DNA of 41,934 nt from a virus. A model generated the notes under the pieces. That model was not told the origin of the DNA. It was given only the letters and a program-made list of their open reading frames with translations, and did not search any database. The translations under genes and the position numbers were made by a program. Positions 22,411 through 41,934 of the stretch are shown here, piece by piece (the stretch's first letter is position 1; each line of letters begins with the position of its first letter). The stretch lies in the IMG/VR virus record IMGVR_UViG_3300047440_000056, positions 1 to 41,934 of that record. One strand, written 5' to 3'.

Positions 22411-22468
22411 GATGTAGTAGTTAGGCCGACACAGCCCGATACCATCGGGAACAAGAGGAGAAAACGAA

Positions 22469-22720
22469 ATGACAAACGAACAGCAAACGTATCAAAATGC
22501 AGAAGTTTCGGCTTTCGAGTCGAGGTTATTTTCGGCTCAACGTTGGGCGCGAAATGTTGCCAATAATAACCCGCATCAAAGCGGCAGTTTTGTGTTGCGC
22601 ATTGCCACAGCGTTCCTGAACGCCGACCCCGACAATCAACGCATACTCGAACCTGCGCTAACTTCCCTGCGACACAAGTACCCAACCTGGGACATTGCGG
22701 AGGCCGACCATGAGCGATAA
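22469..22720 (+). CDS. Hypothetical early protein, 83 aa
   Basis: First gene behind the early promoter, with GAGGAG 9 bases upstream of ATG. The protein is polar, with helical segments (AFESRLFSAQRWARNVANNN and FVLRIATAFLNADPD). Not recognised. It overlaps the next gene by 11 bases. Confidence 0.65.
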   Translation: MTNEQQTYQNAEVSAFESRLFSAQRWARNVANNNPHQSGSFVLRIATAFLNADPDNQRILEPALTSLRHKYPTWDIAEADHER

Positions 22721-22907
22721 AACGATTACCGACAAAGACATAGAACTACTCTCCGACGTTCAAGACTCGGTCGGAGATGGCGCATATCTTCTCGGGTGTA
22801 CCGTTTATGATCGAAATGGCAATTACGTGGCTACTCTTTCCGAATGTTCGAAATGCGGTAATCCGATAATCGTTGGCGAGGAGTGCTCCAAATGTCAGAT
22901 GAAATGA
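22710..22907 (+). CDS. Zinc-finger miniprotein, 65 aa
   Basis: Starts MSDKTITDKDIELLSD and ends with a zinc finger (CSKCGNPIIVGEECSKC, two CxxC pairs). The ATG at 22710 follows GGAGGCC. Its first codons (DNA GATAAAACGATT after the start) recur at the start of the next gene. Role unknown; probably nucleic-acid or protein binding. Confidence 0.65.
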   Translation: MSDKTITDKDIELLSDVQDSVGDGAYLLGCTVYDRNGNYVATLSECSKCGNPIIVGEECSKCQMK

Positions 22908-22969: not shown

Positions 22970-23188
22970 ATGTCGGATAAAACGATTGATAGACTCACCG
23001 AACGGGCCGACACAATCCAAGAATTAGTAAGCGCATGCAAGGCCCTGTTGCGGTGCATCGATGATGGATTGCTTGTTCGCAATATCGCAAAGGACCATGA
23101 ATCTGGCTGGGCAATGAAGCAAATCCCACTTGTCCAAGCAATACAGAGCACGTTGGATGCGATCGCCAAAGCCGAAGGCCGACACTGA
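22970..23188 (+). CDS. Hypothetical protein, 72 aa
   Basis: ATG 22970 has GGAGG eight bases upstream. The frame is open back to 22883 (or 22892), which would add up to 29 residues. The product (RADTIQELVSACKALLRCID) is helical. It resembles many small phage proteins of the type L..A...lL..ID. Its start repeats that of the preceding gene (MSDKTI). Confidence 0.55.
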   Translation: MSDKTIDRLTERADTIQELVSACKALLRCIDDGLLVRNIAKDHESGWAMKQIPLVQAIQSTLDAIAKAEGRH

Positions 23189-23244
23189 GACATCCCGGTA
23201 GGGCGCCTTTTCTTTGTTTTCCCGTCCTATCGGCATCCTTGCAG

Positions 23245-23281
23245 TTGGTAACTGCTCACGAAGCACTAGGGAAGGTGCTTC
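23245..23281 (+). ncRNA. Structured leader element, copy 1 (box plus hairpin)
   Basis: A 15-base box TTGGTAACTGCTCAC (23245-23259) is followed at once by a perfect 7-bp hairpin, GAAGCAC (23260-23266), loop TAGGGAAG, GTGCTTC (23275-23281), and 8 bases later by the GGAGG of the 23302 gene. Copy 2 at 23492 keeps box and loop but has a different paired stem, which is evidence for a selected RNA structure. The stretch 23189-23244 before it holds no gene I can see. Confidence 0.7.
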
Positions 23282-23301
23282 AATTCAAAGGAGGTCGAGA
23301 A

Positions 23302-23490
23302 GTGGCCCACGAAAAATGTGAATGTCACGAATGCACTCAGGCGAGATGGAAGTCTGGAATTCAATCCGCCTTAGGATCACCATCTGCCAATGTACCCACT
23401 TGCAAAAACAATTTTGGCGATAAGGTCTGTGTCTTGGGTCAAGGTCATAGAGGGGCGCATCGAAGTGCCGACAATTCAATGTGGCAATAA
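23302..23490 (+). CDS. Cys/His-rich miniprotein with CECHEC motif, 62 aa
   Basis: GTG 23302 behind GGAGG. Near the start KCECHECTQARWK forms a Cys/His cluster; a second site is CKNNFGDKVCVLGQGHRGAH with two Cys and two His, a pattern common in short phage proteins. The first motif is shared with the late protein at 14667-14858. Probably metal binding; function unknown. Confidence 0.65.
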   Translation: MAHEKCECHECTQARWKSGIQSALGSPSANVPTCKNNFGDKVCVLGQGHRGAHRSADNSMWQ

Positions 23491-23491
23491 A

Positions 23492-23529
23492 TTGGTAATT
23501 GCTCACAGGCCGGGTAGGCAAGCTCGGCC
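23492..23529 (+). ncRNA. Structured leader element, copy 2 (box plus hairpin)
   Basis: Box TTGGTAATTGCTCAC (23492-23506), one base, then GGCCGGG (23508-23514), loop TAGGCAAG, CTCGGCC (23523-23529). The stem pairs over seven positions with one G-U. Compared with copy 1 the box differs at one base and the loop at one, but almost every stem base has changed with its partner. It begins directly after the preceding stop; GGAGG and ATG 23547 follow. Confidence 0.7.
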
Positions 23530-23546
23530 AGAACTTTGGAGGACGA

Positions 23547-23807
23547 ATGCAAATCAAAGCTGGGCTCTATTCTGCCGCAGGACAGCCCGATATAATCGTG
23601 ATCTATGACGGACATTTGCATCAACAAGTCAGTATTCCTCCTGATGTTAGGGGACCTTGGATTCAATGGCGATTCCCCTGGGATGCGGAAAGTCAATATC
23701 AAACTAATCTAATCTTTGATTTCGAGGCCATGCTTGCAGCCGGTGGATATACGCTAAAAGAGGAACGAACGTCGGAAGAAATGAGGTTCGATGAAACTCG
23801 ACTGTAA
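23547..23807 (+). CDS. Hypothetical protein, 86 aa
   Basis: ATG behind TGGAGGACGA. The protein (MQIKAGLYSAAGQPDIIVIY, WIQWRFPWD) is beta-rich with several Trp. Not recognised. The end overlaps the next gene by 17 bases. Confidence 0.6.
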   Translation: MQIKAGLYSAAGQPDIIVIYDGHLHQQVSIPPDVRGPWIQWRFPWDAESQYQTNLIFDFEAMLAAGGYTLKEERTSEEMRFDETRL

Positions 23808-29137: not shown

Positions 29138-29166
29138 TTGACTCCTAACGAGACTCGCGGTAGATT
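29138..29166 (+). promoter_or_regulatory. Internal promoter, sigma70-like
   Basis: TTGACT (29138-29143, five of six), 17 bases, TAGATT (29161-29166, four of six). It lies in a gap of about 200 bases after the HMG-like gene and just ahead of the paired hairpins. Confidence 0.5.
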
Positions 29167-29630: not shown

Positions 29631-29908
29631 TCGAACTTCCGAAGTGGATCGACAAAGAAATCTGGAACGGCTGGGAAGAGTCGCGCAAGAAGATGCGGAA
29701 GCCGCTCACCGACTATGCCCGAAAGCTGGCTGTGAAGAAGCTGCTGGAGATTTATCGGGCGACAGGCGACCATCCGGCAGACGTGCTTGAGCAGTCGATC
29801 CTTTGCGGGTATCAAGGATTATTCCCGGTGCACCAGGGCCGAAGCGGACAAAGGGATGACGAACTTCGGAAGGAACTGCGGACAGGGCAAGGGCCGGTGA
29901 CGCACTGA
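29627..29908 (+). CDS. Replication-protein-like C-terminal domain, 93 aa
   Basis: The pattern LPKWIDKEIWNGWEESRKKM, RKPLTDYARKLAVKKLLEIY, then HPADVLEQSILCGYQGLFPV is the small helical domain found at the C-terminus of many phage replication and helicase-loader proteins and also as a free-standing gene (lp.Wi....W..y...R.k..kplt...a..l...L....G....vl..si..gw.glf.). It probably binds a replication partner. No N-terminal DNA-binding half is present. Confidence 0.65.
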   Translation: MIELPKWIDKEIWNGWEESRKKMRKPLTDYARKLAVKKLLEIYRATGDHPADVLEQSILCGYQGLFPVHQGRSGQRDDELRKELRTGQGPVTH

Positions 29909-33053: not shown

Positions 33054-33425
33054 ATGACCGAGAAACCGCGCATTCAAATTAAAATAACCGAACTGAAGAA
33101 GCAATATCCGCGTCCGGTCAGGGCGGCACTTTGGATGACAGGAGATTACTGCGTCGGCGGAGCCTTTTGCCTTGCAGTCCATGCGAGATTAGATTCTGTA
33201 GATCATATGCATTTCCCGTCTGGCTATGAGCTATTTCGCGCCGTATTGGAAGCCCGTGGAATTGAGCGCGACCTTTTGCCGGACGAAGATTACGACAAAA
33301 TGATAAACCTCGCGCACGGTGTTACGAAGGCAAACGATGTTGGCAGTTTCGGGATTGCATGGAAGTTGTTAGGGCGCTTATTGAATACTAAGGCGCGACA
33401 GCAAATGCCGCCAGAGGAAAGCTGA
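33054..33425 (+). CDS. Hypothetical protein, 123 aa
   Basis: Starts MTEKPRIQIKITEL. Its first 19 bases (ATGACCGAGAAACCGCGCA) recur at the start of the next gene. The middle (ALWMTGDYCVGGAFCLAVHA) and EARGIERDLLPDEDYDKMIN fit a compact helical fold. Not recognised. Confidence 0.55.
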   Translation: MTEKPRIQIKITELKKQYPRPVRAALWMTGDYCVGGAFCLAVHARLDSVDHMHFPSGYELFRAVLEARGIERDLLPDEDYDKMINLAHGVTKANDVGSFGIAWKLLGRLLNTKARQQMPPEES

Positions 33426-33426
33426 G

Positions 33427-33879
33427 ATGACCGAGAAACCGCGCACGTTCGGGAATAAAGTTGAACAAATCAGGCAATCACCTAAAGACTTAATTGAGGC
33501 TATGCAAATGTCAAATGGAGGGCCTGGGGAGTTTACGCCAAGCGAACGGAATACACTTCGCAATGAGGGCAGCACGCATTGGGAAGATTGCTGGAGAGTC
33601 CACATCCAATGCGCCGAAAAAAAGATTATCGCCCGCGACGAAGAGGTAGCCGCCCTGCAAGCGCAGATCGACGGGGTGAGGGTGCTGGCTGAGAAAATTA
33701 CTAGTGGGCCTCTAAGTCATAATTGCGACTTTTGTCACAAGACAGATTATTTTCAAGTGGGTCGTCCTGGGATAAAAGTGGAAAACCATAACGAAAAGTG
33801 TTCTGTGCGAATCGCCAATGAAATTATCATCGCCCTGGGCGAGCCTGCCGCCACGCCGGAAAGGGAGCAAAAGCGATGA
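33427..33879 (+). CDS. Hypothetical protein, 150 aa
   Basis: Starts with the repeated module MTEKPR. Middle is a helical stretch with IQCAEKKIIARDEEVAALQA, then HNCDFCHKTDYFQVG with a CxxC pair and His residues, a possible zinc site. Ends Pro/Ala-rich, and overlaps the next gene by 4 bases. Confidence 0.55.
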   Translation: MTEKPRTFGNKVEQIRQSPKDLIEAMQMSNGGPGEFTPSERNTLRNEGSTHWEDCWRVHIQCAEKKIIARDEEVAALQAQIDGVRVLAEKITSGPLSHNCDFCHKTDYFQVGRPGIKVENHNEKCSVRIANEIIIALGEPAATPEREQKR

Positions 33880-39574: not shown

Positions 39575-41934
39575 TCATCGCGCCAAATTGAATGCACGGA
39601 ATTTCCAGAAATCAATCGTGGCCGCTTTAGTCGCCGTTGTGCCGGTTGCAATGTTCATCGCCGGAATCAGGACATTCGTGCTGGAAGTTTCCGTGACCGT
39701 GCAGCCGGAAGTGCAAAATGTGACCTCTGGGACGGTCACAGCCCCCGTGTTGTCGTAAAGTGTAAAGCCAATTTCGCGGGTTGAAGTCGAAAGGTTTCTA
39801 ATCCGCACTTTGACGTAGTTGGTGCCGTCTGGAGCAACAGAAGTGACAAAAGGTATTTCCACAGAAGCACTGCTCGGGCTGGCAACAAACGTCCAAAAAG
39901 CATCTGGACCCGATCCTGTGGCTCCAAGTGTCGGAGATACGGTCGCCGTTCCGCTGCATGTTGCCGTCCCACTTGATAAGGTGGCTTGTGTCGGCGCTGT
40001 CGTTGAATTATAGCCAACCCCCATTGTATCTATGACAAAGGCTGAACCGCCAGCAATCACATTTGTACCGGTTAAAAGAATGTGAGCTGTAGCAGTTCCT
40101 CCGATGAAAGTCGCATTGCAGGTTTGCCCTACGGTTCCGGTGGTAGTCCCGCCGCTTGTGTAAGTGGAAGCTGTTATATCCTTCAGCGTTGTGTCATACC
40201 GTAGATAAAATCCAGTGCCGGGGAGCGCCGCTGTAATCCCATTCGGCATGTAGCCCAACCGGAATTGGACGTTCGCTGCACTGCCTAGCAATGCACGAAA
40301 ATAAGAATCCCACAGATAGAGCGTGGACATATTACCAAGGGTTCCACTGCCATTCGTATTCAGAATTCCGCCCTGCCCGCTCGTACCCGACGTGGTGATC
40401 GTTTCCGAGCCGATGTTCAATGCTCCTGCTGCCGATGGTCCAGTCGCACATGATGCAGTAGGCGCTCCCCCAATCGTAATTAACGACCAATTATAAGCAC
40501 CTATCGTCAGGGTCGCCGTACCAGCACAAAGAAACTCTTCATTAAAAAGAACTGTGCTCGCATCCAGCACATCGTCCACTTGAAACACTTGAGCTGAAGA
40601 TTGCGCGAGAGGATTGTCGGGTTGAAGATAACTTGGGCGGAAGTTTGGCGCTGTAATCGTTCCAGCGGCTGTAACAGTTCCGTCCACCCTAAATTGAGTT
40701 ACTGTCGAATCGGTATTTATACCAATCTTTCCAGAATAACCGGGTTCCAGACCAATATCCGAATTCGTTAAACTACCTCCTGTTATCCCTTGTAAAAATA
40801 TTCCATTAGTTGGGACACTGTTTCTTTCCGTAATATTTTGCAAGGTGAGATCACGCACAACATGACCTGAAGTTGTGAAGGAAATGTTGACGATATATGC
40901 GCCAGCAGTGCTACTGGTTTCATAACGAACACTTGATAGCGTTATATCATGGGGATTTGCGGTCGATGTCGTATCGATGTAATGGAACCCATCTGTTCCA
41001 CCAGAAAAGTCCACGTTTTGCAACGTGAAGTTGGTAAGTTGAACTCCAGAATCTACGACAATGGCAGGATGACTTCCACCTGCATTGAATCCTGCGTTCT
41101 GAACGAGGCAAAAGTCGCAATCTTCAATCGTGGCTACATTTGGATTTTTAGAAATCTGCCACGGTATATCGGCTGTAAATCCACCACCTAAAATCCTAAG
41201 TCCCTGTCGTCCTTTGGTAAGTAATCCAATACTGGCATTAGTAGAATCGTGCCAGGAACTCCCAGTTCCAGATGTAGCCATATCTTCAAGTGCAATGTCC
41301 GTTGTGTCTTGTAATTCAATGGCAACGCTGCCCGCCTCATCGGTCCCGAGAATCAAAAGCATTCGTTTCATTCCGCCTTGCTGATAAGTCGCTGATGCGT
41401 TTCCAGAATTGAAGAAAAAAAGGACTTTTCCTGTCGTCGTCGGATTGAATGTGATGGCAGCACAATTCTTCGATGGAGCGTCCCAATATTGGCCTCGATT
41501 AACAAGTAGAAGTCCCGTTATGACCGCATAGGCCCCGCAATTAACGTGCATGTAGGCTCCATTTGCCGGAACCTGCGCCTCGGCCCATGCGAATGAGCCT
41601 ACCGTTGCTGCGTTGCCCTCGTCAGTGACGGTCGGATCGGGGTAGAAATCGAATCCCACAATATTTCCAGCGGAATCTTTATGCGTAACAGCCCTAAGTA
41701 CGCCACCTACTACAGATTGCACATCATTGGGAGTCGATATTGGAGAGTCGGAATTGAGTTGCCCTCCGGTCGCTGGAGTGGACAAACATGCCGTGCCGCT
41801 TGTGGACCCAGCCCAACATGTAGCGTTAGTTGTGTTGTTATATGTCCATCCAGCATTTCCAGTTCCACTAAACCCACCAATGTTACCGCTTCCTAAGCCT
41901 ATATCCACGGACATACATGGGCCTGGGCTACAGG
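39575..41934 (-). CDS. Tail spike / beta-helix adhesin, C-terminal part (continues at 797)
   Basis: Bases 41934 to 41808 repeat 127-1. The frame from the TTG at 797 enters here, so the first ATG in this copy (41914) is internal. About 780 residues: a pectate-lyase-like parallel beta-helix with N-ladder rungs (GLRILGGGF, FCLVQNAGFNAGG, NFTLQNVDFSGG, RDLTLQNITERN), a short coiled part, and a C-terminal jelly-roll-like domain with Cys pairs (FCTSGCTV). Host glycan binding or depolymerisation is likely. A catalytic site cannot be assigned from this. Confidence 0.75.
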   Translation of the reverse strand, partial: CSPGPCMSVDIGLGSGNIGGFSGTGNAGWTYNNTTNATCWAGSTSGTACLSTPATGGQLNSDSPISTPNDVQSVVGGVLRAVTHKDSAGNIVGFDFYPDPTVTDEGNAATVGSFAWAEAQVPANGAYMHVNCGAYAVITGLLLVNRGQYWDAPSKNCAAITFNPTTTGKVLFFFNSGNASATYQQGGMKRMLLILGTDEAGSVAIELQDTTDIALEDMATSGTGSSWHDSTNASIGLLTKGRQGLRILGGGFTADIPWQISKNPNVATIEDCDFCLVQNAGFNAGGSHPAIVVDSGVQLTNFTLQNVDFSGGTDGFHYIDTTSTANPHDITLSSVRYETSSTAGAYIVNISFTTSGHVVRDLTLQNITERNSVPTNGIFLQGITGGSLTNSDIGLEPGYSGKIGINTDSTVTQFRVDGTVTAAGTITAPNFRPSYLQPDNPLAQSSAQVFQVDDVLDASTVLFNEEFLCAGTATLTIGAYNWSLITIGGAPTASCATGPSAAGALNIGSETITTSGTSGQGGILNTNGSGTLGNMSTLYLWDSYFRALLGSAANVQFRLGYMPNGITAALPGTGFYLRYDTTLKDITASTYTSGGTTTGTVGQTCNATFIGGTATAHILLTGTNVIAGGSAFVIDTMGVGYNSTTAPTQATLSSGTATCSGTATVSPTLGATGSGPDAFWTFVASPSSASVEIPFVTSVAPDGTNYVKVRIRNLSTSTREIGFTLYDNTGAVTVPEVTFCTSGCTVTETSSTNVLIPAMNIATGTTATKAATIDFWKFRAFNLAR
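41808..41934. repeat. Terminal direct repeat, right copy
   Basis: Identical to bases 1-127; see the left copy. Confidence 0.95.

Follow-up and report, generated by a model that had tools for sequence, protein, structure and literature searches.

Two successive small genes in the early region of the phage genome analysed here are preceded by the same arrangement of short sequence elements, raising the question of what such a repeated leader does and how it came to stand at two gene starts. The window (G000), the whole 41,934-nt stretch of DNA analysed, is a complete circular-type phage record with ends identical over 127 bp, in which minus-strand structural genes run to ~22.3 kb and are followed by a dense plus-strand run of small genes. 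Both leaders lie within this early run, where genes mostly abut or overlap, and occupy gaps of 113 nt before gene 1 and 56 nt before gene 2. Direct reading of the sequence bears out the shared arrangement that a sequence-only reading had reported: each copy consists, in order, of a 15-nt box, 0 or 1 nt, a 7-bp stem enclosing the loop UAGGNAAG, 8 nt and GGAGG. The features of the locus are listed below, with P0, P1 and P2 denoting the hairpins from upstream to downstream and G001 the sole other phage in which the element was found.

23195..23233, plus strand: P0, a hairpin of 11 bp predicted by folding (CCGGUAGGGCG / CGUCCUAUCGG), its 17-nt loop rich in pyrimidines; precedes copy 1 but not copy 2
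23241..23255, plus strand: P1 of copy 1, GCAGUU-GGU-AACUGC, predicted by folding to pair the first half of the box; identical in G001
23245..23259, plus strand: box of copy 1, TTGGTAACTGCTCAC, from the sequence
23260..23281, plus strand: P2 hairpin of copy 1, GAAGCAC-UAGGGAAG-GUGCUUC, 8 bp with the U-G closing pair, loop AGGGAA; in the sequence, GAAGCAC at 23260-23266, TAGGGAAG at 23267-23274 and GTGCTTC at 23275-23281
23290..23294, plus strand: Shine-Dalgarno sequence of copy 1, GGAGG, 8 nt past P2, from the sequence
23302..23490, plus strand: gene 1, 62 aa, GTG start at 23302
23484..23502, plus strand: P1 of copy 2, GCAAU / AUUGC, predicted by folding, weak, overlapping the gene 1 stop codon
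23492..23506, plus strand: box of copy 2, TTGGTAATTGCTCAC, from the sequence
23507, plus strand: extra A between box and stem, in the sequence of copy 2 only
23508..23529, plus strand: P2 hairpin of copy 2, GGCCGGG-UAGGCAAG-CUCGGCC, 8 bp with the U-G closing pair, loop AGGCAA; in the sequence, GGCCGGG at 23508-23514, TAGGCAAG at 23515-23522 and CTCGGCC at 23523-23529
23538..23542, plus strand: Shine-Dalgarno sequence of copy 2, GGAGG, 8 nt past P2, from the sequence
23547..23807, plus strand: gene 2, 86 aa, ATG start at 23547
23260..23506, plus strand: 247-bp cassette (hairpin 1, gene 1 and the second box), missing at the same locus of G001

Between the two copies, box and loop were said to differ by one base each and the stems at nearly all positions while still pairing fully, and so they do: the box is 14/15 identical, and the stems have been rewritten yet remain fully paired, with five of the seven pairs differing on both sides, one on one side (G-U / A-U) and one unchanged. 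An eighth pair, U-G, is contributed by the bases at the ends of the loop and leaves an inner loop AGGNAA. Stem and GGAGG are separated by 8 nt in each window copy, the start codons follow 7 nt (gene 1) and 4 nt (gene 2) after GGAGG, and the 3' end of the hairpin lies 17-20 nt before the start.

This conjunction of elements is hard to obtain by chance. In dinucleotide shuffles of the window, 1.4 box matches are expected even with 3 mismatches allowed, compared with two exact matches observed. The loop together with the stem is a stronger test than the box alone: a stem of at least 5 bp around the loop occurs in none of the 53 unrelated chance matches to TGCTCAC...TAGGNAAG...GGAG(G), a pattern of box end, loop and Shine-Dalgarno sequence at the right distances sought in viral and genome collections, as against 7 bp here. 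Ranked by their upstream hairpins, the gene 1 and gene 2 sites come 2nd and 3rd among 75 Shine-Dalgarno-bearing starts from the early regions of the window phage and G001; the fold z-scores are modest (-1.2 to -1.6).

G001 (IMGVR_UViG_3300049440_000066, 55,303 bp, likewise with 127-bp identical ends) carries a single leader copy with 8 nt from stem to AGAGG. The possibility that related phages keep the box but lose the pairing does not materialize in this relative, whose copy is fully paired. When copy 1, copy 2 and the G001 copy are aligned, with an N filling the one-base gap of copy 1, eight pairs are formed in all three (24/24 cells paired), five of them changed on both sides and one on one side, and sliding the partner column by 1-3 reduces pairing to 17-58%. 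Because the G001 stem is identical to that of copy 2, the alignment contains only one independent covariation comparison; the claim of direct covariation evidence for a selected RNA fold thus stands as regards pairing kept through stem change, but in a weaker form than proposed. Within the loop a single base varies (G in copy 1, C in copy 2, U in the AGGUAA loop of G001, giving inner runs GGAA, GCAA and GUAA), while the other loop bases and the U-G closing pair are constant.

A stem kept through sequence change around a fixed loop argues, as far as sequence comparison goes, for an RNA or single-stranded hairpin and not a DNA dyad. It bears directly on the idea that a repressor or activator binds the element as double-stranded DNA, a role proposed for the ESAS repeats of Cluster K mycobacteriophages, since a protein that binds a dyad would keep the arms constant and let the spacer vary, whereas here the arms vary and the loop is fixed. 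The resemblance in position is real: like SAS/ESAS, the leader repeats lie just upstream of non-structural phage gene starts belonging to various families and combine an inverted repeat with an adjoining Shine-Dalgarno-like core; several SAS/ESAS occur per genome (PMC3203893). However, the paired 17-bp ESAS repeats are conserved in sequence, with conserved arms and no support for RNA pairing (PMC3203893), whereas the arms here change compensatorily. The SAS consensus GGGATAGGAGCCC is found neither at 23290-23302 nor at 23538-23547, and we regard a DNA site as very unlikely.

Not all of the leader is as the sequence-only reading described it. Box and loop had both been taken as single-stranded, and this needs revising for the box, which in the folding models is probably not single-stranded: its first half is predicted to pair with bases just upstream, as GCAGUU-GGU-AACUGC in copy 1 and G001 and as the weaker GCAAU/AUUGC in copy 2. 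Folding is suggestive at most of P1 as a selected structure, with one pair changed across the copies (G-C to A-U) and a larger loop needed in copy 2. A coding explanation for the conserved sequence was rejected: the leader has no stop in frame with gene 1, nor from the box onward in frame with gene 2, but in G001 the loop is not in frame with the downstream start and its own frame soon closes.

The covariance-model search that had been suggested for finding more copies recovered one more, in G001, and no others in 1.04 Mb of related phage DNA; the model was built from the same three copies that it recovers, and its E-values are rough. It returned no copy in four bacterial genomes. Box and loop patterns gave no further copies beyond G001 in IMG/VR, GTDB genome contigs or named phages, the remaining hits being rejected as chance-like, without a matching stem and in many cases apparently within coding sequence. 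A distant blastn search against phages and plasmids retrieved G001 only, and the loci reached through relatives of the neighbouring proteins are either that of G001 or lack the leader. As copies beyond G001 were not found, the element is rare and lineage-specific. Rfam 15 has no family at gathering score in the window, the best weak match at the locus being serC on the opposite strand (14.2 bits versus 35), and a tRNA-like D-arm resemblance of GCAGUUGGUAACUGC was set aside, no tRNA having been found.

Comparison with G001 also shows how the two window copies are related. From the preceding stop codon to the end of the box (window 23186-23259), 74 nt that include P0 are 100% identical in the two phages, and in G001 the copy-2 hairpin then follows. 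The window locus therefore reads as the G001 locus plus 247 bp (23260-23506) at the box, through either gain in the window or loss in G001. The 74 nt are kept although, around the G001 leader, the preceding gene has diverged (34% aa) and genes 1 and 2 are absent. The box is the exact junction of a cassette that the window has and G001 lacks, and its conservation therefore has a second sufficient cause.

Such junctions are not confined to the leader. Blocks of 25-50 nt with 92-100% identity recur at gene junctions between the two phages amid diverged or different genes. Short direct repeats number 4 in the early region of the window and 10 overlapping pairs in that of G001, against 0.2-0.3 expected from Markov controls, and most of them lie at gene starts; the structural regions have 0-1. 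In G001, the Zn-ribbon gene start (TGAAACTSACCTGTAAACGCTGT), single in the window, stands on both sides of a small gene, and this duplication is the same cassette pattern with a different joint:

45103-44933 of G001 (L001 7490-7320), minus strand: 36-codon gene (MNEQFVWAVVG...) between two Zn-ribbon gene starts

Given the cassette junction at the box and the general occurrence of gene-start repeats in both early regions, the box thus also serves as a recombination joint. It may be nothing else, with box and loop acting as a linker and the hairpins being incidental or protecting mRNA ends with no specific reader. The exact coincidence of box and cassette junction favours this account, as does the lack of any similar covarying hairpin at the other gene-start repeats of these regions. 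Against it, a plain linker would keep the stem as well, whereas the stem is rewritten with its pairing intact while box and loop are kept, and the spacing to the Shine-Dalgarno sequence is fixed. We consider a joint without further function unlikely.

Several other repeats were observed in these genomes. Neighbouring genes with different bodies share their first codons at the DNA level, ATGACCGAGAAACCGCGCA being exact over 19 nt at window 33054-33072 and 33427-33445 and the gene start ATG(AGC/TCG)GATAAAACGATT being common to 22710-22727 and 22970-22987; the starts at these pairs look as if reused as joints. The intergenic repeat GGCAAGGSCCGGTGACGCACTGA, found before different genes, has one copy in the window (29884-29908) and four, one of them partial, on the minus strand of G001 near 40098, 39721, 39314 and 38914. 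The block CCATGAAGCGTTCGGACACAACCTG is shared by the structural genes (window 21610, minus strand) and the early genes (30371, plus strand).

The genes behind the two leaders offer little functional guidance. Gene 1 encodes a Cys/His-rich protein with a KCECHECTQARW motif and has no Pfam family; gene 2 matches nothing in Pfam, PHROGs or named phages. The N-terminal motif of gene 1 has relatives in two other phages, at other genome places and without the leader, so the leader is not tied to one gene family. The motif is common to otherwise different small phage proteins (window 23302-23360; L085 8051-8095; L168 3001-3054).

In lambda-type nut sites, boxA is followed by a boxB hairpin with a GNRA-like loop, which work with the N protein, and boxA starts with YGCTCTT. 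An antitermination element of the nut or put type, whose box and hairpin(s) would modify RNA polymerase in the transcript so that a long early operon is read through, would account for the box-then-hairpin order, the resemblance of TGCTCAC to the start of boxA, the predicted P1-P2 tandem, the location of both copies in a long same-strand gene run and the GNAA run (GGAA, GCAA, GUAA) of the loop, which we take to be somewhat boxB-like. The placement is not that of nut or put sites, however: the copies are 247 bp apart, 17-20 nt before starts and after at least three genes. No N-like family was recognised among the proteins scanned, N proteins being hard to recognise, and terminator-like sites in the region (23 versus 16.9, sd 3.7) are not clearly above chance. 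HK022 putRNA shares with the leader a tandem-hairpin form, early transcripts and two similar copies per genome, but it is ~70 nt long with long specific stems and a triplex, binds RNA polymerase and is made in two separate early transcripts (PMC9378689), while the leader stem is much shorter and each copy stands before a gene start. We give antitermination a small probability.

Tandem small hairpins and a hexanucleotide loop starting with A also recall ANTAR RNA, a motif of two hexaloop hairpins with A at position 1 and G at position 4 (PMC3369931). Here, G is at loop position 4 in copy 1 only (C and U elsewhere), and the P1 loop does not have six bases. No terminator follows the leader, no ANTAR protein was seen, and neither a promoter nor a terminator consensus site is present at the leader. 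CsrA/RsmA targets present GGA in a hairpin loop, which among our copies is true of copy 1 only.

Whether the leader could act by itself, as a riboswitch or attenuator, depends on its upstream part. In this scheme, P1 and P2 would form a three-way junction, an upstream arm would close it and hide the Shine-Dalgarno sequence, and P0 would be the competing hairpin. The conserved arm UAUCGGCAUCCUU, present in copy 1 and G001, can indeed pair with either AAGGA.GUCGA or GAGGGUUCGAUG, and P0 draws on part of this arm. Yet pairing with the arm is equally strong at 21-27% of 107 other gene starts, the pairing in longer contexts holds for copy 1 and not for G001, and copy 2 lacks both the arm and P0. 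Hiding of the Shine-Dalgarno sequence by the upstream arm, attractive in the folds, is no stronger than at other starts and was rejected, leaving a riboswitch or attenuator with a very low probability.

We tentatively favour, at a little below even probability, an mRNA leader that acts in cis where translation of small early genes begins and that has been spread by cassette exchange. The hairpin with its fixed loop, 8 nt before the Shine-Dalgarno sequence, would stand where the initiating ribosome has its upstream edge; an RNA-binding protein of phage or host origin would most likely read the loop and either repress or help initiation, placing genes 1 and 2 under common control. The leader would travel on exchangeable gene cassettes by recombination at the 15-nt box, the hairpin-gene-box unit having been gained by the window phage or lost by G001. 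A fixed loop on a free stem beside a Shine-Dalgarno sequence is the pattern expected of a loop-reading protein that acts on initiation. In the folds, the Shine-Dalgarno sequence of copy 2 is largely open beside the hairpin, so direct blocking by the hairpin is not obvious. We infer that the leader functions as RNA, that it has a protein partner, in which direction it regulates and by what route recombination took place; as regards the last, a gene of this phage at 26550-27500 codes for a RecT-like annealing protein (RecT family match). An RNA-binding protein candidate was not recognised among the small early proteins scanned. In G001, the first open frame past the leader has 14 codons and is a fragmentary copy of the Zn-ribbon gene start, which counts against a translation leader at that locus.

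The closest worked example is the T4 / RB69 gene 43 operator, a phage mRNA hairpin upstream of the ribosome-binding site with a conserved top and loop, which DNA polymerase reads and which controls initiation; hairpin length differs between the relatives while loop and top are kept (PMC3014915). The leader described here has the same conserved loop on a paired stem near a ribosome-binding site. It differs in having two copies before two unrelated small genes and a reader that is only postulated, and in ending 17-20 nt before the start codon, compared with ~40 bases for the T4 operator (PMC3014915).

A broader proposal, in which incoming genes on cassettes bring their own start-associated RNA leader with a common loop and the box is structure and recombination joint at once, strikes us as distinctly unlikely; if true, new genes would automatically come under a single post-transcriptional regulator of the phage. 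Small, exchangeable genes crowd the early regions of phages, and the control of newcomers is poorly understood. A fixed loop and a changeable stem at a recombination joint make a testable case of a putative control element that is also an exchange site. The evidence comes from two phages.

Two further conserved sites were observed outside the leader. A likely sigma-70 promoter, TTGACT-17-TAGATT, is identical amid diverged sequence in the window (29138-29166) and G001 (41507, minus strand). Another leader hairpin, CCCGAT-ACC-ATCGGG, lies directly before the Shine-Dalgarno sequence of the first early gene in three phages:

22425-22463 of the window: CCCGAT-ACC-ATCGGG hairpin
46341-46302 of G001: the same hairpin
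727-670 of L085: the same hairpin
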